From Deroplatys truncata (lineage: Eukaryota > Arthropoda > Insecta > Mantodea > Mantidae): DNA of 64,000 bases. The stretch spans positions 260,037,816 to 260,101,815 of the forward strand of contig CM060975.1 in assembly GCA_030765065.1 (NCBI GenBank), given 5' to 3'. Below are positions 5,656 to 57,570 of this stretch, one piece after another. The notes beneath the pieces are model-generated. The model made no database searches. It saw only the letters and a program-made list of their open reading frames with translations, and was not told where the DNA came from. Position numbers and translations under genes: made by a program. The number at the start of each line of letters is the position of its first letter. Positions within the stretch are counted from its first letter, which is position 1.

Positions 5656-5659
5656 TTTT

Positions 5660-5895: not shown

Positions 5896-6129
5896 ACGGT
5901 ATTCAAATTTGGGAAATGAAAAATTTGTGGGAAATTGTGGATAGTGTGTAGTTCATTCTGCAAAGAAATTCTCGGCTTACCAATTGCAGCTGTAAACGAA
6001 GTTGCTCAAATAGAAATGGGGAGAGTTATAGACAAGGTTTGATTATGGAGAGACTTTTAAAACAATGGCACAGGATTTTAAACCTAAATAATGACAGCCT
6101 AGTTAAGTAATGTTTAATATTTCAGGAAC

Positions 6130-10811: not shown

Positions 10812-11085
10812 AACGCTTCATGCTAGCCTCTAGTTCCCGAGGTCGCAGGTTTAAACGCGGCGGAGTGTGATGGATTTTTTTCGGGCGTAAAAATCCTTAG
10901 TATGGCTTGCTTCGGAAGGGAAGTAAAGCCGGTGGTCCCGTGTCGTACGTGGATTAACGGCACGTAAAGGAACCTCAAGCCTGATAAAGAGGCCTCTGAG
11001 CAAAATTATCGGCTTTTCACGACCAACATAGAATGGGACGCTAAGGGCCACAGCAGTTAAAGAGCGTCCATAAATAAAACTCTAT
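10812..11085 (+). repeat. tRNA-derived SINE, family S1, copy 3
   Basis: The head has a degraded B box (CAGGTTTAAACGCGG near 10845), then the full S1 body (GTAAAAATCCTTAGTATGG, TTCGGAAGGGAAGTAAAGCC, CTCAAGCCTGATAAAGAGG) and the 3' part ending GAGCGTCCATAAATAAAA. This is the most complete S1 copy in the window and defines its 3' end. Confidence 0.88.
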
Positions 11086-11124
11086 TTAATTTAATTTATC
11101 ATCGACACTTCACGGTTTAGGAGA

Positions 11125-12268: not shown

Positions 12269-12405
12269 TTACTTTCTCTACTACGTATATTAAGTAGGAG
12301 AAATATTGTATTCCACCCAAAAACTCGATACCGAGATTTCACCGGAAATATATGTTTTGAGACCCCCTGAATACAAAAAAAGCATTTTTGGAAACATGTC
12401 CGTCT

Positions 12406-12444
<39 letters not shown>

Positions 12445-13244
12445 TGTGAACAGCATAACTCAGAAACGAACAGTCGGATAAACACTAAATTTGGTATTTA
12501 GGTTCAGTATTTTCCAGAGATGCGACACGAAGGTTTTCAAGAAAATCCCCCCACCTCAGATTACCCTTTACATGCAACATTTTTCGAAAATTTTAATTTT
12601 CTCAAAAATGGCTGTAACAATTTTGATTAAAACATCATATGTTTAAGATATTTTCATGACAAATAAAATGTATATATTAAATTTTCTGGGAATGTCTCCA
12701 AAAGTATTCTTCATTGTGAACGACTTTTGCATAACTGATAAACCATAAGAAATAGACAAAATTTTACTACACAAAAAATATAGATCGCGTTAAAATACAC
12801 AATTTACGTCATATACATTTTTTGTTGAGTGACAATTTTCGAGATATTGCTTGTTATTCCCTTAAACTTTTCAATACTTATTTTCTCAAATGGGAATTCG
12901 CTATTCATTTTTTTGTCTTGGATATGCAAAGAGTATTAATCTGTGGCAAAGAGAATGGTGCTGCACCTAGCAACCAGATATTGAGATATATGTCTATGCT
13001 TAAAGGCTACTGTATTTCTATTTTGCTCTTGCAAATACAAAACAAGGGGAACATAGTACGCCTTAAGGGATAGTCAAATATTTTTAGAACTGGTCGCTAT
13101 GCGTAAAATGTAATTCTCTTTGCATGGCAAACGATCGTTTATGCAAACGTTTATCTCGATTAATATGAAATAGATGGAGAATAAGAGTTTGTAAAAATAG
13201 TTTGTACAAGAGTGGAGAAAGTCATGTGAGTGTAACATATCAGA
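12269..13244 (-). mobile_element. HINE-like element, near full length (copy d)
   Basis: Full-length minus-oriented copy. The terminal TTACTTTCTCTACTACGTATA is at 12269, a (GT)n tract lies near 12410-12443, the conserved core follows, and the 5' end closes with GGAGAAAGTCATGTGAGTG and the CAGA tip at 13244. Sequence identity to copies e, h, j and l looks high by eye, so this is the younger subfamily. Short open frames inside are products of the dinucleotide run and are not genes. Confidence 0.85.
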
Positions 13245-13699: not shown

Positions 13700-15600
13700 C
13701 ATTAAGTGCCTTTGTGTTGTCATGGTTGTAGGAAAATCAATAGTTAAACGTTTTGTAGTAATGTTTATAGAATTATTAACTATTTCTTCATTATATGCTT
13801 TTTGGTTTACCCAGGAAGTACGATCTCTGTGTTGCGGCTATTTGAGGATTCTATGCCACATATTTAACCTTGACCTCACTTTCCTGTGTCCTGCGTATGT
13901 AAGCGTCATTTGAATTCACCGTGTCTGTGTTTGTTCTGCATGTTTTTCTATCTGCATTTTTCTTTCCCATCTTGTTTTGATTCTTGTGCATTCCAATGTT
14001 TATTATTTTTGTTTATTTCTGGCATTGTGTATCTATATTTCTCTCGGTGGTGTTTTACTCTACTTTTACGATTAAGTATCTTGGTTTGTGTGCCTCTTTG
14101 CCCTCTCGATTTTTCTTGAGTTTCTCTTGGTATTACTATCACGTAAACTGTGTGTTGTGTTCCATGTAGTATTTTGTCTGCGCAATAAGTGTAACGTGTG
14201 TGCGAGTGGGTTTTCGTCTTTATGTAGCAAATGTGTTGCCTTTTATACATTTCTAACTTCTGACATTTGTATTTGTTTCACATTTTCTTTACTTGATACC
14301 TTTCCTTTTGCTATTCCTACTTATTTACATAGTAGTTCCTTTATCTTCCCCACTTGCTTCATTTCAGAATTATTTTGGCATGTTTTCATTACTGGTAACC
14401 CTACTCCTATATTATTTGTATATTCTACCATTTATTCTTTGTATTTAGGCACATCTTTCTCTAACATTCTATTATTTTATTTTACCTCAATTTCTAAGCT
14501 ATTCGTTTTATTACTGACTGCTTTTATCTGATTTTCTAAGCTATTCTTTAATTCCCTCAGGTTATTATTTATGATTTTCCTATTAGCCTTGCATTCTGTT
14601 TTCTTCCCTTATCTATCACACGTTTTAAATCTACTATTTACATTTTCTTACTTTCTAAATCTTCCTTTATACCTCTTTCTATCTCTTGTCTTAATGCTAT
14701 CAACTCAACTTTCCTACTTTATAAATCTTCCTTTATACCTCTTTCTATCTCTTGTCTTAATTCTATCAATTCAACTTTCCGACTTTATAAATCTTCCTTT
14801 ACACCTCTTTCTATCTCTTGTCTTAATTCTATCAATTCAACTTTCCTACTTCATAAATCTACCTTTATACCTCTTTCTATCTCTTGTCTTAATTCTATCA
14901 ATTCAACTTTCCTACTTTATAAATCTTCCTTTCTGTCTCTTTCTGTCTCTTGTCTTAATTCTATCAATTCAACTTTCCTACTTTATAAATCTTCCTTTAT
15001 ACCTCTTTCTATCTCTTGTCTTAGTTCTATCAACTCAATTTTCCTACTTTCTAAATCTCCCTTTATACCTCTTTCTATCTCTTGTCTTAATTCTATCAAC
15101 TCAACTTTCCTACTTTCTGACTAAACTTTCCTATATTCTCAGATTCTTTCATGAATTTAAATAAGTCTTCTAATGTTAATACAATTCCTTTTCCTGGTCT
15201 GCGTCTTTTTGCTTTTCCCCTACTATCTCTACACTTCCTACTTCTTCCCTAGCTGATTCTGTTGTATGCTGAAGTTCATCTTAGATACTACGATACTACT
15301 CGTATTACTTTTTTATTTCTTACCATGAAACTTTAAGATATTTTTTCCCTACTATTCGTCGTCTTCTACACTTGCAATCATCTCCTTGTCGCCGATGTCC
15401 GCGGTCTTCTCCACGCCGTCGTCACCCCGTTGCTGTCGCCGCCGTCGTTTTCCTTTTCCCTGATCGATGTGCCCCGTCATTTCGTTGCCTTGTTGTTGCC
15501 AGTCATCCTTCCATCTTCTCACGTTGTCGAGATGATGTAATGCCTTCCTGTTCCTCTTCTTTATTGATGGTTATATTTAATTATTTTTTTTAAAAACTCT
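13700..15600 (-). pseudogene. gag/ORF1-like coiled-coil protein relic of a retroelement
   Basis: The minus strand, read from 15600 downwards, begins with an unusually GC-rich, basic, low-complexity stretch (15600-15370). Next comes an amphipathic block (TLEDLFKFMKESENIGK near 15165), then seven 22-residue repeats of the type DLESRKVELIELRQEIERG (15125-14650). Another coiled-coil-like block follows (NNLRELKNSLENQIKAVSNK, TNSLEIEVK, NNRMLEKDVPKYKE near 14560-14420) and then a basic region down to about 13900. Charged, helix-prone order with no catalytic domain fits the coiled-coil part of a retroelement gag or LINE ORF1 protein. I did not find a nucleocapsid zinc knuckle. Stops are frequent. 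The plus-strand frames over the same DNA are hydrophobic shadows. Confidence 0.5.
14650..15125. repeat. 66-bp tandem repeat, about seven units
   Basis: Seven tandem units of 66 bp; on the plus strand a unit starts TTTATACCTCTTTCTATCTC. On the minus strand each encodes a 22-residue unit with regularly spaced leucine/isoleucine/valine, equal to two 11-residue turns of coiled coil. Five inner unit junctions read TTTATAAATC or TTCATAAATC, which puts a TAA in the minus-strand frame. The outer junctions (near 14657 and 15049) read TTTCTAAATC and stay open. Confidence 0.9.
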
Positions 15601-15638: not shown

Positions 15639-16322
15639 TGTGGCGGAATTATTAAAGAAGTCTCTGCTTTGACGGACCATAATAAACCTTATAATTGTAA
15701 GATTTGGTCAGAAATTAATGTAGGTTCGTGTAAAATAATTAATAATGTTAAGCAATGAGCGATGAGATCTCCAATATCCTCAGGGCGTGATACGAGGAAG
15801 ATTTATCCTCTTTGATATATTATCAAAACTGGAACGAATTCAAATTTCCATAAGCTAACTTTTTGTTATTTAGTTTCCTGTAATTTTACATGTCACATAT
15901 GTCTTTACTATTTGAAACCTCTCTTAGCGTTTTACAATTTAATATTAAGACCAAGAACATTATTTGTAGTTGCATTGCAACATTCATTAATCTAAGCCTT
16001 CATAAATTTGTTTATTCCATTTGTACAATGTATACTTACCTTGCAAACATTTTTTAAATATAAATATTTAACCAAAGTTTGCCATGGTTGCTACCAAAAT
16101 AAATAAATTCGGTTTCCAAATACAAACATAGGTCAACGTAAAACAAATCCACAATTCCTCAATAAATATAAAATAACAGTCATGATAATGACATAAAAAA
16201 CATGCAAATTGCACAATACATGCATAAATGTAACATCGAATAAAACTAATTATGTATTTTCCATATATTATCTTAAGCAGGTAGGTTCAGTATTTTTTAT
16301 GTTTGATTTTATTGATCCTTTT
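15639..16322. repeat. Direct repeat DR, right copy (possible LTR)
   Basis: Same orientation as the copy at 7760, beginning TGTGGCGGAATTATTAAAG and ending TTGATTTTATTGATCCTTT. About 265 bp (15845-16110) is extra relative to the left copy and partly resembles sequence found after the left copy, suggesting rearrangement. Read on the minus strand it would end in CA. The adjacent TGGCTTCTGCAACATGG (15639-15623, minus) sits where a tRNA primer-binding site would be, directly before the gag-like relic. Confidence 0.65.
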
Positions 16323-16660
16323 GAAGCTGGTCGCGTCCTCGATGCGTAACAATTCAGTCTCTTCTTTCTCCAGTGAGCGTTGAGCAGTGTCGACTCTGTA
16401 AAGTCTACAGGGGGTGGTAAAATTATATGTAGATTGTGATAATAAAAACATCGGCTCTGGTGAATATTGGCTTTATTTTACTGTTATGTTACACATTCAG
16501 GAACGCGGACCACCACTGGGCCAATTATCCGCGACTGACATAGAGATGATTTGTTAGTCGGCAGTATTAAGATGTATTGTAATGTTTTCCCTGCGTTCAT
16601 AGCCGCGGCCTAACTTGAACGGTGCGAAGTTCAGCTAAGTCTGACGTTAGTTGTATTACG
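16323..16660. other. Unassigned, higher GC than surroundings
   Basis: Non-coding lead-in to the minisatellite. A block near 16628 (CGAAGTTCAGCTAAG) already resembles the repeat core. Confidence 0.4.
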
Positions 16661-17256
16661 GCGCAGAGTTCAATTAAGAGTGCTTACATGTCACAGGGTT
16701 CCGCGAAGAGTGTAGTTACATGGCGCAGAGTTCAGCGAAGGGTATAGTTACATGACACAGGATTCAGCGAAGAGTGTAGTTACATGGCGCAGGGTCAGCG
16801 AAGAGTATAGTTACATGACACAGGATTCAGCGAAGAGTGTAGTTACATGGCGCAGGGTTCAGCGAAGAGTGTAGTTACATGTCACAGGGTTCCGTGAAGA
16901 GTGTAGTTGCATGGCGCAGGGTTCAGCGAAGAGTGTAGTTACATGGCGCAGAGTTCAGCGAAGGGTATAGTTACATAACACAGGATTCAGCGAAGAGTGT
17001 AGTTACATGGCGCAGGGTCAGCGAAGAGTGTAGTTACATGTCACAGGTTTCGCGAAGAGTGTAGTTACATGGCGCAGGGTTCAGCGAAGAGTGTAGTTAC
17101 ATGTCACAGGTTTCGCGAAGAGTGTAGTTACATGGCGCAGGGTTCAGCGAAGAGTGTAGTTACATGGCGCAGGGTTCAGCGAAGAGTGTAGCTACATGTC
17201 ACAGGTTTCGCGATGTATAGTTACATGGCGCAGGGTTCTGCAATGAGTGTAGTTAC
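16661..17256. repeat. 32-bp minisatellite, about 19 units
   Basis: Nineteen units of 29-32 bp, with consensus GCGCAGGGTTCAGCGAAG followed by AGTGTAGTTACATG. Units fall into two classes by their first bases, GCGCAG and TCACAG/ACACAG. These alternate for much of the array, so amplification sometimes copied two units together. Every unit ends in TACATG or a one-base variant. Confidence 0.95.
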
Positions 17257-17507
17257 TAGTATTTTGTGAATTTCGCCATGTCCGATATTATCCAACTCAC
17301 AGGGCGCAGAGTTCGGTTAAGGGTGAAGTTATGTGAATTTCGCCATGTCCGATATTATCCAACTTACAGGGCGCAGAGTTCGGCTAAGAGTGAAGTTACT
17401 GGTATTTTGTGAATTTCGCCATGTCCGATATTATCCAACTTACAGGTCGCAGAGTTCGGCTAAGAGTGAAGTTATTTGTATTTTGTGAATTTCGCCATGT
17501 CTGATTT
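17257..17507. repeat. 76-bp tandem repeat, 3-4 units, containing the 32-bp core
   Basis: Units carry GTGAATTTCGCCATGTCCGA, TATTATCCAACTTACAGG and then GCGCAGAGTTCGGCTAAGAG with a GTGAAGTTA end. The last part is the same core as the 32-bp array next to it. The first unit is shorter and the last decays into unique sequence. Confidence 0.9.
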
Positions 17508-20500
17508 CATCCCTACTCCGCATATGTCACGTGATTATTTTGTTCGATTTTAAATCATGTGACGATCTCCTATTTTCGTATTCGTCCGTATACAAACTTT
17601 GTATACTTGACATTCCATTTACTGGCTAAAATTTCAGTTCTGTTCAGCTTACTCTTCCCACGGTACTATTTACAATTAGTTTAATTTATACTGTAGCACG
17701 TACGTACGTTTATGGCTTTAATCCTTTTCTCGGCACAAATATCATGTTTCTTCCGCTTTGAAAAGAAATAGCACTTTCCGAGACTTATTTTCCACAGACC
17801 CTTATTTAATGGCTCAGTGCACTTGTATACGTACCGACAGACCTTTCCTGTCCCAAGAAAAGGGAGGGCTGGTGACTCGAACCTTACTTCCTCAAACAAT
17901 TGCGATATTTTGTATGAAGGTTTTTCCTCGAGTTATAATATGAATACAACATTTTATATATTTTTTTGATGTATATACAATAAAATCAAATACGGAGTCG
18001 AGTTAACATTTTACATCTTTATTTAATCTATATACAATCAAATCAAATACGGGACCTAGTTGAACCGTATCATTTTCTGCTTTTCTTAAGAGTAATTGCG
18101 TATTTTTCTCCTTTGTATTTCTTATAAGTAAATCAAGTTTCCGAAGTAAGAACAAAAATATCAGTAGCAAGCCTATTTTTGGAATCCTGAGGAATAATTG
18201 CAAATATATCTGTTTGTAAAATGGAAGGAAATATAAAATGTTAAAAGTATTCAAGATGCAATTACAAGGAACATTGTAATATGTATAATGTTAGATGTAA
18301 TCATATGTGTGGTGTAAACAGTATATAACAAGTATTATCGTTTGGAAATCAGTTTATTTTTAAAAATGACACTCTTTTTACTGCTATAAATGTTATTATT
18401 GTTGCAATTATTGTTACTTGTTTTTCTCAGGGCTTAATTTTTCTGTTATAATTTATGGTATTTTTTGGAATATTCACTTATACCTTTTTTAAATCACTAA
18501 ATTTATATGTTTATTTTGTGTCATTAGGCAAGATAATTTATTAATCAGACTAATAAATAAATAAACAAATAATGTTTAGTATTTGCAACCGTTGAGATAA
18601 AAATTATACATTCAACCATTCTCTTTTAAATCTAAAACAAGTTCTTTTAAATTTAAATTGTTATACCATGCAGAGTTTTCTTTCTCATATGATTTTAATA
18701 TGTTTACAACATTTCTTAGTTTGTTTAGAAACAAAAATAAACTATGGAGTGTTGTACTTCATCCACCATGTACATAGTTGAATTTTTTTTCAAATAAACA
18801 AATAAAATGTCACCGCTGTAATTTAAATACGCTTAATTTTATAATTACACTTTAATAACAACTTCTTTCCTCTTATTACCTTTTCTATTTACTTAACTCT
18901 GGAGAATTCATGTCTAGCTGCAATAGTTGCAATATGCGAGTATTTATATCTGGGGAAAAGGAGCAAAATTAATCCGTGAGAGTTGCCAATAGGAGTTATA
19001 CTGGAACCAAAATTTTGCTGCTGATTTCAGGTAAATAAAACTATATATTTAGCACATAATAATATGAAATAATATGTTGGTGGGAGAAAAAATATCCAAA
19101 CTATTAAAACAAACAAAGCAGCAGCGAACATAATCTTCAAACATACAAGGTGTGTATGCATTTTGTTTCCAAACAAGTCCAAATTGAAAAACATTAAAGA
19201 CATGTGACAAAGTTACCTAAAACGTGGGCGTAGCTGGCTCTCACTGACACTATCTAAACATGGTGCAGCATCTTGCCTTTTAAATCATTACTCTGAAATT
19301 AGTGCACATATTTAAATAATTGTTTATGCAAAATAACCTAAATATTTGCTGCATACAATTGCATATATTTTTAAAAATAAATTTGTTGAAAATATTAAGC
19401 TGTACCTACCCCCTTAATGAACTGCATTTTTTGTGTGTTAAATTTTTTTATATAACTTGTACGCTTTTCAGTTATAGGAAATTCAATAGGAGCGAAGAAA
19501 ACTTCACAGACTACATAAAGAACATTAAATACATCCATTTTAAATTTTATGGTGCAGTTATCTTGGATGTACGAGTATAATATTTTAGCAAAACGCAGTA
19601 GACTAGAGGAAATTAAAACAAAAGTGACAAAATTTTCCATTTAAATATTGTTTGAAAGGGAGTAACTTCTTAAAAATATTTACCTTCATGCCTGATTTAA
19701 ATATGAAGTTTGGTATTCATGGAATTTTCCATTTATGAGTATTGTCCTGTTTACATACAAACACACGCGCGCGCATTCTCTTCACCCCCTCTCTTGTTTA
19801 AATGCAACTTTTTCCTATTGTGCACGCTTACGCCGCTATTCATCTTAAGTCGATAACTAGGAGAAATATTTCGGTTACTATCTTATGATATGTATAGTAT
19901 AATTACATCCATAAAGAAGAAGCGAGCTCGGAATTCCTAAGCCGCACGATAATGATGAAGGCATCTCTCAAGTAGTTCGCTAAGACGCTAAGATCCTGTC
20001 TATTACTGCATCCTGGATGTTCCGAGGGTTTATCCTTTAAATCCTCTTCTCACGCTCGGTGCACGGTTTTCCACATGACGTCTCCAAGTAATTCTGTGAA
20101 ACTTCCCCTGTGTTGTGTTATTAGAACCATCGTCAAGTTCCTTGCACTCTCCTGTTTCAATTGTTAAAATAACTAAGTCGCCTCACGTGTAGCTACCAGC
20201 AGACACGTGGCATGTGTCCTGAATACCATGGTTTTCTTTTGCTTTCTATACCATCCAGTTAATAGATAGTTAATGGAAAACGTAATATTCCGCAGAAATT
20301 TGGAATACTTACAGACAGCAGCTACTACTTTGTTCATTGCTATTAGCTAGAGTCTAACTTCCTCTTATTTACCTGTTATTTTTCCGCATTTAAATCTAAA
20401 CTTATAGTTTTCTGAGAAAATACTATACGGCTACAAACAAATACTTTTTTCGGATATATTATTGCGGCATTATCTATCACCTTTGTCTATACGTAACAGA

Positions 20501-21251: not shown

Positions 21252-22626
21252 CCAATGCTGAAAATTAATAACTCTTAAAAAAGCGATTAAGATCTATTAT
21301 TGTTCTTCAGGAACAGGCTGTGAGCAGGTCACATGCAGACTTTAAACTGCCCTACACATATCAAGTAAACCAGCAGCTAAATTGCATAAAACATTGTTAC
21401 ATTGTTTCAGAGGCCAGACACTAGTTTCCAATTATCGGTCTTTCTCATCCCTATTTCCATTAATAGGGTAGACGAAGTATTACATTCCCCCCAAATATTC
21501 GACACAGTATACAGCAGATTCACATATCAAGGTACCTGAAACAAAGGAAAAATGTAGTTTTAGGGGTGGAGAGAGATAAAGAGGAAGACAGAGGATTAAA
21601 CCGATTATCATGAAACTGTTGATACTCTCTGTTCAGTGATGTTAAAACTGTTGTGATGGGGTGGCTTATCTCTCAAGTAAAGCTTTAGCTGGTGGGAGGG
21701 GTACACAGTATGCTGAACTGCTGCCGCGCTGGAGCGAGCAGTTGAAAAGAGCCAACAGTCTTTCACTATCGCGCGTCTTCATCTTTAAAATCACTTTCTT
21801 CAAGCTCCTAAAATATTTGGCCTCTTGTTCCCAAAGAAAAATACCCAATTTTGGTCCAGATTGTTCTCAAAGTAAGGTAATGTTTAGCTCTACATATCTA
21901 TGTGAGATTTCTTTTTCCAGTATGAAATTTATAAAAAAAAATACAGAAACAGACTAACCGATGAACTCTTGGACAACTGTATTCGAATGGCAGTCACTAC
22001 TACTCTCCCAACATTAAGAAATTAGTTGATAACATAAAACAGTGTCACCCTTCTCATTAAGGATAATAAGTTTGAAAAAAATTTGTTTTTACATTTGTAA
22101 TTTATTACTAACTACACTTCAATTTCTTTCTTATGTACAAATTCCAATTCAATTTCTTTTTCTTATATACAGTTTAATTAAAATTCATTTCATATTTACT
22201 AGAAATCTAAGTTTATAGACAATAAACAATTGTAAGATTTTTTTAAAAGTTCTTATTTCTGTCCTAGTTTCTTTTGGTAGCGCAAAGTAGAATTTAAAAA
22301 CGGCACGGTAGCTCAAAAGCTTCATAAGTTTGGCGGCCACTGATGTAATAGGTATCACACTTCTGACGAAGGGTTTATTACACTCTCAATAAAACAATAC
22401 TTCGAGGTGTCTGTTTCTGCTGACGGTGGTAAAACCCATCTCGGTCCCATCTTCCAAAATGTAAACAACCTAACTCGGTCCCATTTTACAAAGTATAAAC
22501 AGCCTGTAGGAAATTAACTCAATCTAATTCATTTTAGAAGATTTACGATAGTGATTGAAAAACGATATTGCAGTTTTATGTTTCACTAAAACCTATTTTA
22601 ACGGGAAATCAGATGTTATATAAAAA
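21252..22626. other. No gene seen
   Basis: Unassigned. A 98-codon plus-strand frame at 21661 and its opposite-strand partner are not recognised. Confidence 0.4.
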
Positions 22627-23365
22627 TCTGATGTGTTACACTCACATGACTTTCTCTACTCTTGTACAAACTATTTTTACAAACGCTTATTATCCATATG
22701 CTTCATGTTAATCGAGATAAACATTTGCAGAGTCTATCTTATGGCTAATTTTCTTGTAGATGTAAGGGGAATATATATTTACAAGGGCAATATAGAAAAA
22801 CAGTAGCCTTTAAGCACATACATATCTCTTAATAACTGGTTGCTAGGTGCAGCACCATTCCCTTTCCCACAGATTAATACTCTTTGCATATCCAAGACAA
22901 AAAATGAATAACGAATTCCCATTTGAGAAAATTATGAAAAATTTAAGGGAATAACAAGTAATATCTCGAAAATAGTTCACTCAACAAAAAAAATGTATAT
23001 GACATAAATTGTGTATTTTAACGCGATCTACATTTTTTGTGTAGTAAAATTTTGTCTATCCCTTATGGTTTACCAGTTATGCAAAAGTCGTTCACAATAA
23101 AGAATACTTTTGGAGACATTCCCAGGAAATTCAAGATATACATTTTATTTGTCATAAAATATCTTAAACATATGATATTTTAATCAAAATCGTTAGAGCC
23201 ATTTTTGAGAAAATTAAAATTTTCGAAAAATCTTCCATGTAAAGGGTACTCTGGGGTGGGGGAATTTTCTTGAAAACCTTCGTGTCGCATCCTTGGAAGA
23301 TACTGAACCCAAATACCAAGTTTGGTGTTTATCCGACTGTTCGTTTCTGAGTTATGCTGTTCACA

Positions 23366-23406
<41 letters not shown>

Positions 23407-23553
23407 ACAGACACACACACGGACATGTTTCCAAAAATGCTTTTTTTGGATTAAGGGGGTCTCAAAACATGTATTTCCGTTGAAATCTCGGTATCGAATT
23501 TTTGGGTGGAATACAATACTTCCCCTACTTACTATACGTAGTAGAGAAAGTAA
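22627..23553 (+). mobile_element. HINE-like element, full length (copy e)
   Basis: Full-length copy of about 927 bp. The 5' end is TCTGATGTGTTACACTCACA. The 12-bp ACTTTCTCTACT at 22649-22660 is inverted relative to AGTAGAGAAAGT at 23540-23551. A (CA)n tract spans about 23366-23402. The 3' end contains CTACTTACTATACGTAGTAG, which can fold as a short hairpin, just before the GAGAAAGTAA terminus. Non-coding. Confidence 0.88.
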
Positions 23554-25148: not shown

Positions 25149-25996
25149 CCCGTTGATACTTTCACATGACTTTCTCTTACCCTATATCTTTATTAGTGGG
25201 TATACAAATCCTTCTTACTAAAGATTATTTCTTATCTGTTTAATTTTAATCCAAATAAACCTTTGCAGAAATAACTATATTACACATTTCGTTATAGATA
25301 CAAAGGGAACAACGATAGTCAAATGTTTAAGAACTGCACGCTGCCTAAAAGTTCCATAGTGTTTCCATCCAATCGCAAGAAACAACCGAATGTTGAAAGG
25401 ACTTAAATGACCAAGAAATGAACAGTTCGGACCATTAATAACGGTTATCTCGAAAATGGCTGATGCCAAATAAAAAGTTATTTGGAATACATTGTGTGTT
25501 TTAGGGAGATCTTCATTTTTTGTGAAGTACGTTTTCGACTATCGCTTAACGTTTACTAGTTATACAAGATTATACAAAATTCCTTCCGAATGAAGAGGAC
25601 TTCAAAGTCTATCCCAGAACATTCAAGATACACATTTTATTTGTCATGTAACTATCTTTAGTATATGTTATTTTAATCAAAATCGTTAAAGCTATTTTTC
25701 AGAAAATAAAATATTACGAAAAATGTTCCATGTAAAGGGTAATTTGTGTTGAGAGGATTTTCTTGAAAATCTTTGTGTCTTATCTTCAGAAGGTACTGAA
25801 CCTACACACCTACATACCTAGTTTTAGTTTTTAGGTATGCTGTTCACAGACAGACAGACACATGGACCTTTTTCTAAAATTGGTTTTTTTTTATTAAGAG
25901 GCCTCAAAAATATATTTCCGGTGAAATCTTTGTATCGAGACTTTGAATGGAATGCAATACCTTCTCTACATACTATGGATGTGGTAGAAAAAGTAA
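25149..25996 (+). mobile_element. HINE-like element, diverged subfamily (copy f)
   Basis: Same order of blocks as copy e, but with a degenerate 5' tip and subfamily-specific blocks (ATTACACATTTCGTTATAG, CTATCGCTTAACGTTTACTAG). The dinucleotide tract is reduced to ACAGACAGACAGACACA. The 3' end reads GTAGAAAAAGTAA. Confidence 0.8.
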
Positions 25997-26182
25997 TAAT
26001 ACAAAACAAAACCAAAGAACTGATAAATAGGGGAAATGCTTCAATGTGTTAATTTTGCGCTGCATTAAGTCCCACTCCCATGGGGAACGTAATTTAGATA
26101 CCAATATGCCAATTTTTAAGAAAGATCTAAGGCATAAGTTTACAGTATACAGTACATATATAGAAAAAAAAAACGTTGAAAA

Positions 26183-27983
26183 TCTGTGTGTTACATTCAC
26201 ATGCCTATCTTTACCCGATTTTAGTTTACTTTTATGCAACTATTTCACCCTATTCTTACGAAAGCTTATTTATCTATCTACTTCATTTTGTAAGGGAACG
26301 TTTACCCAATATAATAGAGTATTAAAAATAACAGGGATAACTAATATTGAGAAATAGCTTTTCTGTAAAATAACTTGTACCGCAAAATACAATTAACGAG
26401 AAAGCAAGCATGGGAACACTGTTATTAACAATCAGTGGTCTAGCAACAGGCGTCAGGGCCTGTACAGGAGTGAAAGTCTATCGGCACACACACGCTAATG
26501 TACACAGGGTTTAGACAAAGTTACAGAAAATAGAGAGAGAGAGAGAGATCCGAGGTTAGAGTGAGACAGAGATAGAGATCCATTGCTGGAAGCCAAGGGA
26601 GTTGGAAAAATAGAAAGAGAAATGAGCATTGTAAAGTGAGTCGGGGATAGTGGGTTTTACCAGAGAAATCAAACGGAAGCGTGACTCAAATTTGGAAGAT
26701 TTTATTTTCATAGCACGCTAAGTAGATAACCAATGAGAATAGTTGTGCATATAAAAGCGCGAATTCTATCATCATAGTAGGATATATAAAAGAGGAAAGA
26801 GACCCCAAGTTCCTATTCTCTTATACACTCTCTACACACCATTCTTCGTGATTGACCGCTATTTAATATATGTGAAATCAGGCGGAAGATTCTGTGCATG
26901 TATGCGGATGAGAAATATCGTGACGCAGTTAGATATGTCCACATAATAATTCACAGACTTTTATATCACTTTACTTTTAAGCAGAGGAAATTTGCTAGCC
27001 GCTTCAATGGGCATTATATTTGAATAAATTAAGCTGTTTAAGGGAAAGTCAGTTTGTTATTTTCCTTCGCCTAATCAATTCTGAGAAATATCAAGTTAGC
27101 TACTAGAATAGGAATTTTTCTTCAGATCTACGAAAAACAGCCCGGCAGGGAATTCAAGGTAACTTCGGAGATCCGAGACAGCACTTATGTGAGATAACCA
27201 TGGTACTCACGTGCGAGCCCTTCCATCCCCGCTGTAATTTCAATCGAGATAAATCTTCGCAGAAATACTTACATTACACATTTCGTTATAGGAACAAGTA
27301 GGACAAATTAAACAAAATCGATAGTTAGATTTTTAAAATCCGGACGCTATAAGCTGGCCTTGAAATGCCATACTATTTCTGTGATATGGCGAGACACAAC
27401 CGAGTATCGACAACACAAAGATGACAAAGTATTGAAAAATTCAACCATTAATAATGGATATACCGGAATTCCCGATTCTCTTAAAAAGCTTTAAAATTAA
27501 ATTGTGTCATTAAAGCAATACATTTGTGTGTTGTCTTATCTTAAAATTTAACAGTTAAACAAAGTTATACAGAATTCCTTCTGAATTAAGAAAGCTTCAT
27601 AGGCTATTCCTAGAAAATTCAAATTATACTTTATAGTTCTCATGTAAACCATTAAATGCATATTGTATATTATTCAAAATCATTCGGGCCTTTATTGAAA
27701 AAAAAATAAAAGTCGAAAATGATTTCATATAAAGGGTAGTTTGGGGTGGGGATATTTTCTTGAAAATCTTCGTTTTAAATCTTTGTAAGATACGTTGTGG
27801 ACTTTTAAATGTTTCGCTTTTGAGTTATGCTATTTATACACATACACACGAATGTGTTTTCTAAAAATAATTTTTCCTGGATTTAGGGGCTTAGAAACAT
27901 ATATTCCATTGAAATCTCTGCATCCGATTATTGGATGGGATGCTATTTTTCCTCTACCTACAGGTATGTGGTGGAGAAAGTAA
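26183..27983 (+). mobile_element. HINE-like element, diverged subfamily, interrupted (copy g)
   Basis: The 5' end (TCTGTGTGTTACATTCACATG) is at 26183-26340. The rest, from AATCGAGATAAATCTTCGCAG, resumes near 27243 and runs to GGAGAAAGTAA at 27983. The roughly 0.9 kb between (about 26340-27235) is foreign: unknown sequence with a (GA)n tract near 26531 and GC-richer patches. I saw no clear target duplication, so the exact joints are approximate. Confidence 0.65.
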
Positions 27984-28899
27984 AAATGTAACATTTGCCT
28001 TCAAAGTAGCCAATTACATACATTGGTATCAATTATTCATTCAGTTAAAAAAGTGTTTCATACTGGAACAATTCGAGATAAAGGAACATACTGCATGTTT
28101 CATCATGCCTTACCTCCTCTATTAAGACCAGAAAAATAAAGTTGTTTCCCATTTTAGCCCAGTATGCATGAACTGAGCTCCATTAACCTATTCTTGCTAT
28201 AGTGGTAAAAGCTTTTACGAGCCATCATGTAAGTAATTGCTAATTGCAAAGCTACTCCATTATCGTCACTAATGCAAACTATTGTTTGTTTCACACAAAC
28301 GTCTAAACCTTTCGAGACTGGATGGCAGTAAAACAAGGAACAGAGATAGATATTCATGTTTCTCCCAAAGTTGTTGTCACTGAGAATGAATAGCAGGCAC
28401 TGTTTCTCGTTATAAAAACAGCATTAAGCAAAATTTCCATTTAGTATTCAGGAGCAGTTACAGATGTATCCAGTAATGAAGCAGAGCTTAACTCAATTTT
28501 GCTCAGTTACAGAACACGATGATGTTGCATGTACTATCACACAAAGCCCGATTCTGACGCAAACCATTTTGTTTCGAGCTGTCACAAGAACTGTTTACCA
28601 TTAAATTGACGTCGTACGTATTGTCTGTCATACAAAGCTTTCCCTTTCCCCACCTGAATACCATGTCACTAGCGTGACGTCAGAGCTAAGCTGACAGAAG
28701 GGGCCCCCGCGACAACCAAAACTTAATAATGCTATGTGTTCTTTAATTGTTTTCGCCACCAGAAAAGGGCAGGTTGCCATAGTAACACAGCTTTCTCAAA
28801 TAGTTTTACCTTTTTTACCATTTACCTGTGCTAGTTAGAAGAAGCAGTAGATATAGTGCATCTAAAAATTCCTTAACGAGATTTCACAAGAAATAAAAT
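27984..28899 (-). other. Unassigned; contains a minus-strand protein-like fragment
   Basis: The minus-strand frame 28357-28154 (67 codons) includes GLDVCV, ISDDNG and YMMARKSF. A similar series (KGIEVHI, VKDNGYTLN, LMMARKPF) lies at 29378-29100, on the other side of a HINE-like scrap. I do not recognise the protein. The pair may be two remnants of one duplicated or interrupted element. Confidence 0.35.
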
Positions 28900-29378: not shown

Positions 29379-30366
29379 TACATTTATTAAGGAACGATTT
29401 ACATTGACATAAGATTGTGTGCTTAGATTCTGACAAACAGAAACACCTGCTTTTGTTTACATCAGAGGGAACTCTGGTATAGAATGGGCAGTAGTTGTCA
29501 TTACCTCCAGACTTCTCACTATCCAAGTTTAAATGCCTGAGCTATGTGTTTTTAGGTAGCGTATCACGAATGACTTAAGCTACATTTGTTTTGTTTTGTT
29601 TTTTGTTTACGTTAGCCGTTTTTGAAATAATACACTTTGTATATTTACATTTTGCGAAGTATAAGTAGATCATGAGACGGAAAGTATTCGAAATTCTGCG
29701 ATTCCTGCAACATTTGTATATTGTTCCTGCTTGTTGTATGTAATTAAGCTCTTACTGCATAATATGAAATTATTTCTGGGCAGAAATGTATCGCCTAAAG
29801 CGTAACATAGCATTTTTGTTCAATGAAAAGTCTTTGCTCATAATGTGAAATATTCATATTTTGAGACAGATTCAGTTTAGAGAGTTCGGTTGCTTCGTAT
29901 ATACAATTTACGTAAGCGTGTATTCTGAGCAGAAAATATCAAATGTTCTGGGTATCTCGTGGCATTTTACTTTCTCAGATTATCTCAGGAAAAGTTTTAT
30001 TAATTGATTGGAAACGTTACGGAGGGAAGTGGAGGAGAAGGCAGATGGGATGACACGAGTTACTTATTGAAATAGATTCATATGTCTGGTATCGTACATA
30101 AGAACCACTAACTCCATTACTTAAGCCATTTAGATATTTTTTGTGCTCTCTTCTGAGATTTAAAGCATTGGCTTTTAAGACGTTTCATTGCTCCTGTTCG
30201 AAAAGAAAGCATACCAGCAATTATTAGCTACAACACAAAATAAATACGCAATCTTAGGATCCACGTTGTGTATCTCAATCGAAAACAAAGGGTCATGTTG
30301 TAAACGGCAACAGCGGATAAACAAATGCGCGCGCGCCACATGAATTTCTCTCTCTACTGCCGTTTA
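29379..30366. other. No gene seen
   Basis: AT-rich spacer. A short CGCGCGCG run lies near 30327. Confidence 0.4.
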
Positions 30367-31178
30367 TTACTTTCTCTACTACATATAGTAAGTAGGGGAA
30401 GTATTGTATTCGACTCAAAAATTTGATACAGAGATTTCACCGGAAATACATGTTTTGAGACCCCCTGAATCCAAAAAACGCATTTTTGGAAACATGTCCG
30501 TGTGTGTCTGTCTGTGAACAGCATAACTCAGAAACGAACAGTCGGATAAACACCATTATGTTCAGTATCTTCCAGAGATGCGACACGGTTTTCAAGAAAA
30601 TACCCCCAACCCAGATTACCCTTTACATGGAACATTTTTCGAAAATTTTAATTTTCTCAAAAATGGCTCTAACGATTTTGATTAAAATATCATATGTTTA
30701 AGATATTTTCATGACAAATGAAATGTATATCTCGAATTTTCCGGGAACGTCTCCAAAAGTCTTGGGAACGACTTTTGCATAACTGGTAAACCATAAGAGA
30801 TAGACAAAAGTTTACTACACAAAAAATGTATATCGCGTTAAAATACATAATTTATGTTATATACATTTTTTTTTTGTTGAGTGAACATTTTAGAGATATT
30901 GCTTGTTATTCCCTTAAATTTTCCAATACTTATACTTTTTCTCAAGTGAAAATTCGTTATTCATTTTTTTGTCCTGGTAATGCAAAGAGAATGGAATACA
31001 TAGCAACCAGCTCTTAAAATATTTGACTATAACTTAAAGCCTACCAATTCCCCTTGCATCTACAAGAAAATTAGCAATAAGATTAACATCTCGATTAACA
31101 TGAGACATATGGAGAATAAGCGTTTGTAAAAATATTTGTACAAGAGTAGAGAAAGTCATATGAGTGTAACACATCAGA
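30367..31178 (-). mobile_element. HINE-like element, full length (copy h)
   Basis: Minus-oriented copy of 812 bp from TTACTTTCTCTACTACATATA to CACATCAGA. The dinucleotide tract is very short (GTGTGTGTCTGTCTGTG at about 30500), which shows how variable this tract is among otherwise similar copies. It lies head to head with copy i. Confidence 0.85.
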
Positions 31179-31189
31179 ATTTTTTTATA

Positions 31190-32915
31190 TATCTTCTGAA
31201 AACTATTATTATTAAGGCTTATTTTTGTGCAAACGTTTTGTTAATGGAGATAAAATTTGCAAATGGTATCATTACCCATGTCGTTGTAGGTAAAAGAGAA
31301 ATAGAGGTGCCAGAAGCGTTAGTCGTAACTTTAAAAAAACGGTTGCTATTGGCTTTTAAATTACATACTCCTTGTACGAGCACGAAAACAAACGAATGAC
31401 AACTTAGCGTTTCAAAAAGTATAAAGTGTTTGAAAATTTAAACTAATAACAACTAATATCTTGGAAATTGTTAATACCGCAACACAAGTATTCGACATAA
31501 ATTGTGGATTTTAAAGAGACCTACATTTTTTGTGTGGTAGGCTTTTATCTATCCCTTAAGGTTTACCAACAACATAACATTTTACAAAATTCATTCAAAA
31601 TGTGTACCATTTTCTCTTCTCATCGTCTAATGTAGAATGCAAGATCTGGCGTCTTTTGCAAGATAAATCTTGGAACATCTTCGAATTCACACTGAGAGGC
31701 GGGACTTGCCCCAATGGATTGTGCGCATTGTGCATATGTCGCTTGGTTCAGCCAACAGCATCAAGCGAGGCACGATGGCTAAGAGAAGTATCTCCCAAAC
31801 CGGCCAAATTTTGGGACACACAACGATCCACAGCGGATGAGATAGGCAGCCTTACTTTGAGAAGCACATTTGGCGGGATGTAATGAGGGTAGAAGAAGTC
31901 ACATAGCTTCAAGAGTATTATAAATTATACGAATATTCTTTTGGTGAGTAATATTTCAAAATTATTTTGGGTTCCGGTTTCACGTAATGCATTAAACGAG
32001 TAGAAGCGATACAAAAGAAAGTAGTACGAGTAGTTAACTTAATCAATGTGATATAAGTTCTTCAGTTACACAGAAAGCAATAATTGTTAAACTTGTTATG
32101 TTATTTAAAGTGTATTATGTTTAAAGAGATTTAAAACGAAAACTATAGAAAGTCAAATCAACTACAAAGTGAATCGTAAAATAAGGGTAAGACAGGAAAG
32201 GAAATACAATTTGTAAAAAATACTTAACTTGAATTTATAATAAATTACGTAACAACAGTTTGATGCTAGTATTTAACTTAATCTCCCTTTAATTTACACC
32301 TTTAGTAAGTATATAATTATGTGTATTATGTTCCACCCCTCATGGACAGGCATCATAATTGCTGAGGTTCAGCACTATTATTTAACTTGGCTTCCACAGT
32401 TATTAGTAGCTGCACTAAATTTAATGTATTAAGGTAAAAGAGCAGTTAAAATAAGAATAGTACAAATAATACCAGCGCAAACGAAGAGGTCTTAAAATGA
32501 TATTCGTAGTACATTCAAGGCACATATCTTATCATAGAAATGTCTTAAACACCTATTATTTTAATAAAAATCGTTATACTCATTTTTGATTAAATAAACA
32601 ATAACACAAAATTTTCATGTAAAGGGTAGTTTCGTCTAGATGGATATACTGAAAATCTTTTGAAGATGTTGAACGTAAATATCAAGTTTGGTATTCATCC
32701 GATCTTTCGTTTTTGTTTAATGCTGTTCACACACACAACCGCGCACGCACACACTGACACGCGTGTGCAAACATATACAGGGCGTACATCAACAAGCTAC
32801 TTATTTATTCAGCGGACCTAAAAACTTGTATTTTTGATGAAATCATGAAATCGATTTATTTTAAAATGCAATACTTCCTTTACCTGCTATACGTGGGTGT
32901 TAGAGAAAGCAGTAA
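31190..32915 (+). mobile_element. HINE-like element, diverged subfamily, with internal insertion (copy i)
   Basis: Subfamily blocks start about 12 bp after the 5' tip of copy h, in the opposite orientation. The left part runs to about 31601. The right part (AACGAAGAGGTCTTAAAATG onwards) resumes near 32479 and ends AGAGAAAGCAGTAA at 32915. The variable tract is mixed CA/CG (32730-32765). The 5' tip is missing. Confidence 0.7.
31602..32478. mobile_element. Unknown insertion inside HINE-like copy i
   Basis: About 877 bp interrupts the conserved block that reads TTCCGAATGAAGAGGACTT in copy f. Its ends are TGTACC... and ...CAGCGCA. A 93-codon plus-strand frame (31602-31883) lies at its left edge: GC-richer, cysteine-containing (TCPNGLCALCICRL), not recognised. 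The TG...CA ends would suit a solo LTR, but no convincing target duplication was found. Confidence 0.45.
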
Positions 32916-38649: not shown

Positions 38650-39496
38650 GACTGACTAGGGAGGCTGGTCCCCCATGTGACTCTGAGAGAAGATCGTCAT
38701 CCGAGTGACTCTCCCTCCCCCCGAGAGCTTTTCCAGTAGGCCGGGACCTAAAATTAAATCCGCTCCCCCCATTACAGGGTAAAAAATCTGATGTGTTACA
38801 CTCACATGACTTTCTCTACTCTTGTACAAACTATTTTTACAAACGTTTATTCTCCATATGCTTCATGTTAATCGAGATGTCAATCTTATTGCTAATTTTC
38901 TTGTAGATGCAAGGGGAACATGGTAGGTTATAAGCGATAGTCAAATCTTTTAAGCGCTGGTTGCTATGTGGCGCATTCTATTCTGTTTGCATATCCAGGA
39001 CATAAAAATTGAATAACGAATTTGAGAAAAAGTATAAGTATTGGAAAATTTAAGGAAATAACAAGCAATATCTCGAAAATGGTTCACTCAACTAAAAAAA
39101 TGTAGATGACATAAATTGTGTATTTTAACGCGATGTACATTTTTTGTGTAGTAAAAGTTTGTCTATCTCTTATGGTTTACCAGTTATGCAAAAGTCGTTC
39201 ACAATAAAGAATACTTTTGGAGACATTCCCAGGAAATCCAAGATATACATTTTATTTGTCATAAAAATATCTTAAACATATGATATTTTAATCAAAATCG
39301 TTAGAGCCATTTTTGAGAAAATTAAAATTTTCGATAAATCTTCCATGTAAAGGGTAGTCTGGGGTGGGGGGATTTTCTTGAAAATCTTCTTGTCGCATCT
39401 CTGGAAGGTACTGAACGTAAATACCAAGTTTGGTGTTTATCCGACTGTTAGTTTTTGAGTTATGCTGTTCACAGACACACACACACAGACACACAG

Positions 39497-39530
<34 letters not shown>

Positions 39531-39998
39531 ACACACGGACATGTTTCCAAAAATGCTTTTTTTGGATTCAGGAGGTCTCAAAACATGTATTTCCGGTGAA
39601 ATCTCGGTATCGAATTTTTGGGTAGAATGCAATACTTCCCCTACTTACTATACGTAGTAGAGAAAGTAAAAATGGATACGCCACTTACACGCGTCAACCT
39701 CAAAAGAGGGGAAGACTACTGAGACCTCAGTGGGGAAGACAACAACCTAGCAGACTCTTCAGAGCAGTACCGGAAGACCTTGAAGCGTCTCACAACCCCG
39801 CTTGGACGGAAAACCACACAGACCTACCAAATCGCCCATGGGTATTGGGAGGTCAACCCAATCCAAACAACACCCTTGCGGGTGGCCCAGCGTACTTCTA
39901 GTAACGTCAGAAGTACCACGAGTGCTCAGGGTCCGCACCAGGGCAGCTGAAGGGGTCGGAACCCCCCTTACGGGGAGTGTGACAAGGTCACCGTAAAA
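38650..39998. mobile_element. GC-rich insertion carrying a HINE-like element inside
   Basis: It interrupts the mariner between the KVM.VF block and the second catalytic block. The outer parts (38650-38786 and 39670-39998) are clearly GC-richer than the neighbourhood. They look like one element of about 465 bp into which HINE-like copy j inserted. The outer element is unrecognised; it could be the 5' region of a LINE or a SINE-like composite. Confidence 0.6.
38787..39669 (+). mobile_element. HINE-like element, full length (copy j)
   Basis: Very similar to copy e: TCTGATGTGTTACACTCACA at the 5' end, ACTTTCTCTACT at 38809-38820, a compound (CA)n/ACAGACAC tract at 39474-39537, and AGTAGAGAAAGT at 39656-39667. 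It is the innermost layer of a three-layer nest: mariner, then the GC-rich element, then HINE. Confidence 0.88.
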
Positions 39999-42411: not shown

Positions 42412-43743
42412 ATCATTCGCATAACTTTCTCTACCAATTAAAATTCACATATTCATCTTATGCATTATAATACTCACGCAAAAAGTGATTGCTGTATTCA
42501 TTTTAGATTATTCGTGATATATGGTGGCCCAGAAATGATTCTAATTAAACAAGTGCTAGTTATATTTAAAATGCATAAAATATGTTCAGATATATAAATA
42601 ACCATTTGCATGGAGGAGTAAATACTGAAGTCGTAGTAATAAATTCTTGCGAAAGAAAAGAAAAGTAAGAATTGCAAGTAATGAAATATGTTCCACAGGA
42701 TAGCCCAGTTACATGTAGTAAAATGTGAAGACTCAATAGGGACTTCAAAAAAACAGCTAACATAAATTATGTGTTTTAATGAGCAATATTTGTTCTGGTA
42801 ACTTGTTGGTTGCCTCTGTTATGGTTGCACAGTAATACGAGTACCGTACAAATTATACAAAATTGAATCAGAAGGACTTGAGGACTTATTGACAGGAAAT
42901 TCAAGATACATGTTCTATTCTCCTGTCAATATCTCAAATATACACGGTGAAACATTTAAGATGAGACGTAAAACATTTCCAAAACTAAGCGTTGTTGAAA
43001 GAAATGTCTGTAATCAAAGTTGCTTCGTATTATAGGGGAATGTAAGTGCCATTAACCGTGTTTTTTTTGGAGGACGTTAGGTGGTCATTTTAGGGCCAAT
43101 TTAACTTTTTTAAATGAGAACCTACATTTTGTATATTGGTTTCTCTTTAGAAAATCGTTTATAAAAGCTGTTTATTTTGTGAAGAAGAATAAGGGAACAA
43201 AATAAAAAATGTTGGTTCCCAATTACTAAACGTAACTTGACCCTCAAATGGTCATCCATGGATGGTCCAACCATTCATTGCGCCCTTCGTATACAGCCAT
43301 TCAGAATTTTCGTTGTTATTTACTTCGGTGTAAGAACAATTGTAAAGTGCTTTACAAAATATGGTTTAGTGTTTTTTATGAGGAGTGAGAAAACAACGTA
43401 CAAAATGTAGGTTCCCGTTTAAAAAAATTAAATTGACCCTAAAATGACCATCACAGCGTCCTCAAAATAAAACACGACTAATGGCATTTACGTTCCTCCA
43501 TAATATCAAGCCACTTTTATTCAAGAAATTTCTTTCTACAACGCTTTGTTTTGGAAATATTGTGCAGTCTGAACTTAAATGGTTCACCCTCTATGTTAGA
43601 GTCGATATCGTTAGAACTATTTTTGAGAAAATAATAGACAAAAACTACCTTCTATATAAGGGTCAATTTGGTGTTGTTGGACTGGAAAATATTGGATTTG
43701 CATGCAAAGTTTAATATTCATCCGACTTTCCATTTTTGTTTTA

Positions 43744-43790
<47 letters not shown>

Positions 43791-43850
43791 TGCGCACGCG
43801 TACTGTGTTCTGTAATACTTCCTCTACCTTGTCTACGCTGTATTGGATAA
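42412..43850 (+). mobile_element. HINE-like element, diverged, with nested foldback element (copy k)
   Basis: The 5' end TCAGATGTGGATCATTCGCA is followed by ACTTTCTCTACC. The middle is interrupted at 42945-43590. It resumes with GTTAGAACTATTTTTGAGAA and the TCTATATAAGGGTCAATTTGG block. The variable tract is (TC)n followed by (CA)n (43745-43790). The 3' end is badly degraded. Confidence 0.72.
42945..43590. mobile_element. Foldback element FB, both arms
   Basis: Two inverted arms of about 195 bp (42945-43140 and 43395-43590) flank a 250-bp loop. The left arm begins GGTGAAACATTTAAG; the right arm, reverse-complemented, begins GGTGAACCATTTAAG. Both continue with TTTCCAAAAC.AAGCGTTGT and ATGCCATTA. 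It lies inside HINE-like copy k, so it is younger. Non-coding, hence non-autonomous. Confidence 0.85.
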
Positions 43851-52942: not shown

Positions 52943-53625
52943 TCTGATGTGTTACACTCACATGACTTTCTCTACTCTTGTACAAACTATTTTTACAAAC
53001 GCTTATTCTCCATATGCTTCATGTTAATCGAAAATCGAGATGTTTAATCTTATTGCTAATTTTCTTGTAGTTGCAAGGGAATTGGTAGGCTTTAAGCTAT
53101 AGTCAAATATTTTAAGAGCTGGTTCCTATGTGGAGTATTCCATTCTCTTTGCATTACCAGGACAAAAAATGAATAACGAATTTGAGAAAAAGTATAAGTA
53201 TTGGAAAATTTAAGGGAATAACAAGCAATATGTCGAAAATGGTTCACTCAAAAAAAAATGTGTATGACATACATTGTGTATTTTAACGCGATCTACATTT
53301 TTTGTGAAGTAAAATTTTGTCTATCTCTTGTAGTTTACCAGTTATGCAAAAGTCGTTCACAATGAAGCATACTTTTGGAGACATTCCCAGAAAATTCGAG
53401 ATATACATTTCATTTGTCATGAAAATATCTTAAACATATGATATTTTAATCAAAATCGTTAAAGCCATTTTTGAGAAAATTAAAAGTTTCGATAAATGTT
53501 CCATGTAAAGGGTAGTCTGGGGTGAGGGAATTTTCTTGAAAACCTTCGTGTCGCATCCTTGGAAGATACTGAACCTAAATACCAAGTTTGGTGTTTATCC
53601 GACTGTTCGTTTCTGAGTTATGCTG

Positions 53626-53663
<38 letters not shown>

Positions 53664-53792
53664 CTTGTTTCCAAAAATGCTTTTCTTGGATTCAGGGGTC
53701 TCAAAACATGTATTTCCGGTGAAATCTCGGTATCGAATTTTTGGGTGGAATGCAATACTCCCCCTACTTATTATACGTAGTAGAGAAAGTAA
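52943..53792 (+). mobile_element. HINE-like element, full length (copy l)
   Basis: TCTGATGTGTTACACTCACA at the 5' end, 12-bp ACTTTCTCTACT near 52966, (CA)n at 53628-53660, and a CTACTTATTATACGTAGTAG hairpin region before GAGAAAGTAA. About 850 bp, very similar to copies e and j. Confidence 0.88.
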
Positions 53793-57094: not shown

Positions 57095-57570
57095 GGAAGT
57101 TCTCTTTATTCGGAAGAAATTGTGTATAATGTTGTATAACTTGCAAACGTTAAACGATAGACGGAAATGTACCACACATAAATGCAGATCTCTTTAATAC
57201 ACACGATTTACTTCCAATATTTTTTTTTGTAGATAAGCAGTTTACGGGATATCCGTCATTAAAGGTTCGAATTGTTTCAATACTTGTCATCCTTTTAAAG
57301 TCCCATCGACTTTCAGTTGTTTCTCGCGATTGCATGGAAACAGTATGAAGTTTTAAGGCCAGCATGTAGCGTTCAGTTCTTAAACATTTGACTATCGCTG
57401 TTCTCCTCGTGTTTATAACGAAATGTGTAACGTAACTATTTTTACAAAGGTTTATTGGATTAAATGTAGTATATAAAAATAAGCTTTAGTAAGAATAGTT
57501 TGTATACTTGCTAATAAAAGTAGAAGGTAGAGAAAGTCATGTGAATTATCACATCAGATTTATTTTTTAT
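57094..57570 (-). repeat. HINE-like repeat, diverged subfamily, 5' half (copy m)
   Basis: Starts AAGTTCTCTTTATTCGGAAG, matching the middle of copy f in reverse complement. It proceeds through ATTTGACTATCG, ATAACGAAATGTGTAACG and GAGAAAGTCATGTGA to the CAGA tip near 57565. The 3' half, which would lie towards the mariner, is missing. Confidence 0.8.

Follow-up and report, generated by a model that had tools for sequence, protein, structure and literature searches.

A HINE family with the ends of autonomous Helentrons in the genome of the mantis Deroplatys truncata

INTRODUCTION

The closest described relatives of the repeat reported here are HINE-Mo of a predatory mite and DINE-1 of Drosophila, with which it shares asymmetric subterminal inverted repeats (subTIRs), a 3' palindrome, and a microsatellite (PMC4067079, PMC2374699). 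According to PMC4067079, mite HINEs carry one subTIR 2 to 4 nt from the 5' end, the other 38 to 60 bp from the 3' end, and a palindrome 8 to 35 bp from the 3' end; in DINE-1 an inverted repeat is partly nested in the 5' subTIR. Section 8 of that paper reports that Helentrons and HINEs prefer T-runs and have a variable number of Ts. Helentrons that encode a deubiquitinase (DUB) domain (VTD) and a C-terminal AP-type endonuclease are known, insects included (PMC9741609). Here we analyzed a 64,000-nucleotide stretch of contig C1 of D. truncata (C1:260037816-260101815, called the window) in a genome of 4.29 Gb and 818 contigs, and we focused on a repeat at window positions 22627 to 23553.

This repeat almost certainly belongs to a family of HINEs, that is, of non-autonomous, DINE-1-like Helentrons, with both ends of an autonomous Helentron of the same genome. 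The family is new by its sequence; the kind of element is already known. HINE has no coding capacity of its own. The HINE/DINE-1-like class had been proposed from the letters of the window (the original prediction), and it was borne out by insertion into T-runs without detected duplication and by Helentrons that have the same ends and open Rep, helicase, and endonuclease frames.

RESULTS

Copies, ends, and orientation

Strands and 5' and 3' are given in Helentron orientation, in which copy A, the element at 22627 to 23553, has its 5' end at 23553 and its 3' end at 22627. The letters of this element match their description in the original prediction. The 20-mer tip had five matches in the window at up to three mismatches (0 expected), and the 12-bp arm ACTTTCTCTACT had 14 at up to one mismatch (0.6 expected). 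Both counts are far above chance, and thus the repeat is real. Five copies, A to E, have kept both ends and are 88 to 93% identical in pairwise comparisons over 799 to 893 aligned positions; A, B, and C lie in one direction and D and E in the opposite direction. About nine more places hold diverged or cut relatives, mostly 67 to 86% identical to copy A, with pieces near 0.14-0.22, 3.79-3.93, 25.2-26.0, 26.2, 27.2-28.0, 29.0, 31.2-32.9 (interrupted by copy E), 42.4-43.8, and 57.1-57.6 kb, and a 38-bp piece of the family lies at 21.5 kb. A search with copy A assigned 6,307 of the 64,000 window bases to the family. The claim of at least 14 copies with one architecture therefore stood only in part: there are five near-full copies, 14 is reached by counting the diverged and cut ones, and these are not all of one architecture.

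At its 5' end, HINE reads T(n)-ACTTTCTCTACT, and the subTIR has an inverted repeat nested in it. TT-ACTTTCTCTACT folds with AGTAGGGGAAG, which comes next, and the 35-nt 5' end thereby forms a structure with the subTIR inside the stem; a nested repeat of this type is known from DINE-1 (PMC4067079). The 3' end consists of AGTAGAGAAAGT, the hairpin ATGTG-N7-CACAT, CAGA, and T(n). The spacing of the subTIRs, 2 nt from the 5' end and 22 nt from the 3' end, was common to the five window copies and to two autonomous Helentrons described below. The ATGTG/CACAT palindrome between the 3' subTIR and the terminus was likewise present in HINE and in both Helentrons.

The original prediction had assigned the ends in reverse. 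Its 3' end is the true 5' end, because the element fits the published plan of subTIRs, nested repeat, and palindrome on the opposite strand and because the frame of the partner Helentron runs in the same direction. Frame direction alone is no proof, since one Drosophila Helentron has a reversed reading frame (PMC4067079, section 8). GTAA, which had been taken as a 3' terminus that marks a distinct family, is the reverse complement of the true 5' end, and that argument for distinctness falls. The dinucleotide tract, said to lie in the middle, is situated toward the true 5' end, at the distance given in Table 1. A short hairpin had been reported at the supposed 3' end; a potential hairpin is indeed there, but the other end has one too. 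The corrected orientation bears on the annotation of element ends.

Autonomous partners

A search of the genome with the PF14214 (Helitron_like_N) profile gave 152 matches, with 150 of 291 candidates scored. By eye, we counted 18 open frames of at least 2,100 aa among the matches listed, and we read the ends and domains of two of these 18 copies. The two Helentrons align over 10,291 bp at 99.4% identity and have unrelated flanks; each contains a 2,324-aa frame, with 31 aa differences between them. The partner protein matched the Pfam families Herpes_teg_N (tegument-type DUB), DUF6570, Helitron_like_N, and PIF1, as well as Exo_endo_phos_2 (27.9 bits; cut-off, 27.4). It contains PHEH, Y..KY, GKST, MGDFNFD, and SDHKP, which we take to be motifs of an HUH Rep, a Walker A site, and an EEP endonuclease. 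NCBIfam models of helicases, relaxases, and other ATPases matched the protein below their cut-offs, and a search of PDB sequences with the endonuclease part returned a single match at E 0.47. The combination of a tegument-type DUB domain with a C-terminal endonuclease is like that of VTD-bearing Helentrons (PMC9741609).

Compared with HINE, the Helentron is 88% identical over its 5' 777 bp, 94% over the last 33 bp, and 93% over the last 41 bp. Thus, the genome does contain what the original prediction had suggested searching for, a Rep/helicase element with the same termini; both Helentrons read have Rep, a Pif1-type helicase, and an EEP endonuclease. The statement that no such partner lies in the window also held: tblastn with the partner protein and blastn with the non-HINE part of the partner gave no window match at E 1e-3.

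Both Helentrons are part of a shared unit that begins with a HINE 5' end and about 650 bp of HINE, continues with the Helentron and its own 5' end, and closes with the Helentron 3' end. This chimera of a HINE 5' end and a Helentron 3' end occurs at two places with unrelated flanks and 99.4% identity. Since the same chimera is found at two unrelated sites, the HINE 5' end and the Helentron 3' end appear to have worked jointly in transposition. It is the strongest sequence evidence that a Helentron may move HINE.

The Helentron protein carries 21-aa charged tandem repeats between the DUB domain and DUF6570 (loci L043/L044 and L045/L046). In 11 of the 18 long frames listed, the length either is 2,324 aa or deviates from it by a multiple of 21 aa, as would be seen with a variable number of repeats.

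Target sites

Family members lie in T-runs. In the orientation of the original prediction, the base was A in 50 to 53 of 54 heads at every one of the five positions that precede the element, and in 47 to 52 of 55 tails at every one of the three positions after GTAA; these are Ts in Helentron orientation. The left and right flanks of 42 pairs were no more alike than those of shuffled pairs at lengths of 2 to 12 and offsets of 0 to 3 (lowest p of 44 tests, 0.06). Directly beside the ends, no informative pair was identical at 2 bp (6 pairs), 4 bp (9), 5 bp (9), or 6 bp (17), and one pair each was identical at 3 bp (of 8) and at 7 bp (of 28). When an offset of up to 2 was allowed, one pair each was identical at 2 bp (of 6), 5 bp (of 9), and 6 bp (of 17), and none at 4 bp (of 9). 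An apparent 7-bp duplication at copy D was considered and dropped, being one of 28 informative pairs at that length.

Empty sites gave the same picture. For copies A to E, no match inside the window spanned the junction of the joined flanks. Among the 42 joined flanks, 11 aligned across the junction to other family members, and eight of these were clean; L010 (69% identity), L011p1276 (reverse alignment), and L021m1506 (shifted, gapped alignment) were excluded. In the eight clean nested insertions the empty site differs, besides point differences, by 1 to 5 bases of the A/T run, which fits the published T-run preference (PMC4067079). Several nests are at the same internal site and are therefore not independent. 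Thus, HINE is inserted into T-runs, and no duplication was detectable outside the T-run in the 42 flank pairs and eight clean nests, as the empty-site check put forward in the original prediction had anticipated for a Helentron. Neither of the two results named there as counting against the class, clear duplications at paralogous empty sites or a DDE relative with the same ends, turned up.

Self-insertion and polarity

An internal T-run near reference position 654 is the main site of self-insertion. We call the left junction of a copy inserted there J5 and the right junction J3. Exact matches genome-wide numbered 18,190 for J5 and 16,254 for J3, with 0 for the controls. For the Fusarium element FoHeli, it was proposed that units with a doubled 5' end and a single 3' end arise when transposition starts at the outer 5' end and stops at the first 3' end (PMC5148889). 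A general rule of stopping at the first 3' end would predict a large excess of J5 over J3. This expectation was rejected by the two totals. In the window and an initial set of loci chosen for near-full copies or PF14214, there were 10 J5 and 5 J3.

The C1 junctions listed (100 J5 and 85 J3) formed 47 clusters with J5 only, 48 with J3 only, and 27 with both. We sorted 40 of 78 single-junction places on C1 by eye, the first 20 of 33 with J5 and the first 20 of 45 with J3. The J5 set contained seven full nests, eight clean 5'5'3' chimeras, three places that are ambiguous because an opposite copy adjoins, and two undecided places. The corresponding numbers in the J3 set were four full nests, six clean 5'3'3' chimeras, one place ambiguous for the same reason, and nine undecided. 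Both kinds of chimera were thus common, and we saw no clear polarity. This is a weak test, because exact patterns miss mutated partners and because the undecided share is larger in the J3 set. Chimeras in which self-insertion has left at least two 5' ends but a single 3' end, as described for FoHeli (PMC5148889), occur here as well. Unlike in that description, the opposite chimera, with one 5' end and two or more 3' ends, is similarly frequent here, and about 16,000 to 18,000 junctions are at one site.

Abundance

The exact 5' 30-mer occurs 137,949 times genome-wide (68,883 + 69,066) and the exact 3' 30-mer 125,509 times (62,558 + 62,951); reversed-pattern controls gave 0 in both cases. The window has two exact 5' and three exact 3' 30-mers, a density close to the genome-wide average of about one 5' 30-mer per 31 kb. 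Drosophila species have 334 to 6,297 DINE-1 copies each (PMC2374699); the number here is far larger, although it was counted differently and in a much larger genome. With copy A as the query against the genome, 40 of 2,833 first-look candidates were scored and yielded 52 matched pieces on 15 contigs, of which the first 40 listed were 86 to 100% identical, mostly over the first 730 to 760 query bases. By the same query, 711 of 42,045 bases in twelve Helitron loci belong to the family. These two samples allow only a rough estimate of how much of the genome the family makes up.

Feature coordinates and other observations

TABLE 1 Window coordinates of HINE copies, relatives, and parts of copy A
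Feature	Position	Strand	Comment
Copy A, full HINE	22627..23553	-	both ends read
Copy B, full HINE	38787..39669	-	both ends
Copy C, full HINE	52943..53792	-	both ends
Copy D, full HINE	12269..13244	+	both ends
Copy E, full HINE	30367..31178	+	both ends; probably within older diverged copy F
Diverged copy F, split by E	31192..32912	-	outer 3' tip probably left at ~30326-30365 beyond E
Diverged relative	25161..26000	-	arms end CC/GG vs CT/AG in copy A
Diverged relative	27235..27990	-	5' end kept, 3' end replaced
Diverged relative, 3' part	57096..57561	+	adjoins open frame resembling DDE transposase fragment
Diverged relative, in fragments	42424..43800	-	fragmentary
5' subTIR ACTTTCTCTACT, copy A	23540..23551	-	2 nt from 5' end
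5' hairpin, inverted repeat nested in 5' subTIR	23519..23553	-	-4.2 kcal/mol; 8/200 shuffles equally stable
CA/TG dinucleotide tract, copy A	23362..23420	.	~134-192 bp from true 5' end
Internal T/A run, main self-insertion site	22899..22904	.	reference position ~654
3' subTIR AGTAGAGAAAGT (= ACTTTCTCTACT on +)	22649..22660	-	22 nt from 3' end
3' hairpin, stem ATGTG/CACAT, 7-nt loop	22631..22647	-	75/200 shuffles equally stable
3' flanking T-run (AAAAA on +), usual at insertion sites	22622..22626	-	next to 3' end of copy A

The truncated relative at 57.1 to 57.6 kb adjoins a 164-aa open frame at 56611-57105 (- strand), a putative fragment of a Tc1/mariner-type DDE transposase by its appearance. 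A second dispersed repeat with a CCTTAGCATGGCTTCCTTCGGAAGGGAAGTAAAGCCGG core is found at 715-870, 5661-5886, 10819-11093, and 45515-45943, in copies about 80 to 90% identical. Tandem arrays occupy 14534-15181 and 16635-17512, with units of 66 bp and about 32 to 76 bp; the 66-bp array keeps two overlapping frames open. An inverted pair of about 1 kb (46241-47230 and 48386-49331; 78% identity over 1,018 aligned positions) contains no HINE match. A tRNA scan of the window with the bacterial code found none, Rfam at gathering scores had no matches in the window or in locus L069, and the exact 26-mer of the 3' end had no match in the viral_contigs set.

Elsewhere on C1, the 3' 30-mer recurs 26 times between 20515 and 119394, near the contig start, at intervals of about 3,409 bp or double that length. 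At the start of this region, L069 (C1:20401-27500) contains two tandem units that are 99.0% identical, each with a near-full HINE copy. Two other loci, L047 (C1:26123300-26133200) and L048 (C1:22027900-22033400), are long palindromes in which HINE arrays form the outer part and tandem repeats of about 76 bp the inner part. The arms of L047 are at least 4.3 kb long and 97.8% identical. Over 4.8 kb, L047 and L048 share 99.7% identity, and their structure resembles that of a foldback-type mobile unit with HINE arrays as cargo. Near C1:13.83-13.84 Mb there is a third pair of J5 doublets of a similar kind.

DISCUSSION

We weighed three other explanations. The inverted 12-bp arms, the A/T runs on both sides, the net gain of 1 to 5 A/T at nested sites, and the 7-bp match at copy D could all be expected of a miniature inverted-repeat transposable element (MITE), which would derive from a cut-and-paste DNA transposon with short inverted ends and duplicate a T-rich target. 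However, the arms are asymmetric, at 2 nt and 22 nt from the ends. No fixed target duplication was found: informative duplications next to the ends were absent at both 4 and 5 bp, and the permutation test was flat. The partner with the same ends encodes Rep, helicase, and EEP, not a DDE transposase. We therefore regard a MITE as very improbable. We give as little credence to a derivative of a canonical, Helitron1-type Helitron. The partner protein does belong to a rolling-circle type family, and other PF14214 matches in the genome score higher, but the matching partner has an EEP domain, and the element has the ends T(n)ACTTTC and CAGA-T(n) and T-run targets instead of a 5' TC, a 3' CTRR, and insertion between A and T. 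Moreover, the 11-bp subTIR core is absent from 11 of the 12 best-scoring PF14214 loci (about 3.5 kb each, so that ends may lie outside), and in the twelfth, L040, its matches are in or beside diverged HINE pieces.

A satellite or recombination-driven repeat that is not a mobile element would account for the tandem J5 and J3 series and for the 3.4-kb tandem array at the start of C1. It does not fit scored copies on 15 contigs with sharp ends and differing flanks, or the eight clean nests, in each of which one host copy is split at a T-run and the remainder is kept. We consider it the least credible explanation; secondary formation of satellites from mobile copies is compatible with a Helentron origin.

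Several points weigh against the assignment to HINEs. The 3' hairpin is not more stable than shuffles (75 of 200 for HINE and 45 of 200 for the Helentron were equally stable), and the 3' end distances are shorter than in the mite HINEs of PMC4067079, with the subTIR at 22 nt instead of 38 to 60 bp. AAAAATA stands on both sides of copy D, a 3-bp match flanks copy E, a 5-bp match appears in one pair once an offset of up to 2 is permitted, and a duplication of 4 to 5 bp made up of Ts only is possible. Five of the eight clean nested insertions are at the same internal site. Exo_endo_phos_2 is only 0.5 bit over its cut-off, and Exo_endo_phos (19.0 bits) is under its own. HINE reference positions 778 to 894 were not found in either Helentron read, and HINE is thus no plain internal deletion of these two. 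Finally, the polarity test lacked the asymmetry predicted by a strict model of stopping at the first 3' end.

With HINE and DINE-1 as described in PMC4067079, the family shares insertion into T-runs, variable terminal Ts, no target duplication found, and an autonomous partner with the same ends. It differs from DINE-1 in its subTIR, ACTTTCTCTACT here and ATACCCGTTACTC in the melanogaster subgroup of Drosophila as described, and in overall sequence. A literature search that paired Helentron with some arthropod groups gave no mention of Helentrons among the matches listed.

From the shared ends and the domains of the partner protein, we infer that HINE would be mobilized in trans by rolling-circle chemistry. 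The Helentron protein, with its HUH-type Rep, Pif1-type helicase, and C-terminal EEP endonuclease, would nick the HINE 5' end at T(n)^ACTTTCTC; one strand would be unwound as far as the 3' hairpin, CAGA^T(n), and the copy would be joined into a T-run, with the target not duplicated.

What remains most interesting is that nested units lack clear polarity. In the simplest reading, the first 3' end is often passed over; recombination or deletion could be an alternative source of the chimeras. We put forward only tentatively, and lean somewhat against, the idea that the genome preserves tens of thousands of Helentron self-insertion events at a single preferred T-run, with new units forming about equally by passing over and by stopping at the first 3' end. 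If this were true, Helentron termination would be leaky, a 5' end would be usable with any downstream 3' end, and the family would gain 5' or 3' pieces through nesting. With its open-frame autonomous Helentrons and very numerous HINEs, this genome offers a useful test bed for start, stop, and insertion, and the nested insertions supply ready empty sites and a gauge of how often a 3' end is passed over.
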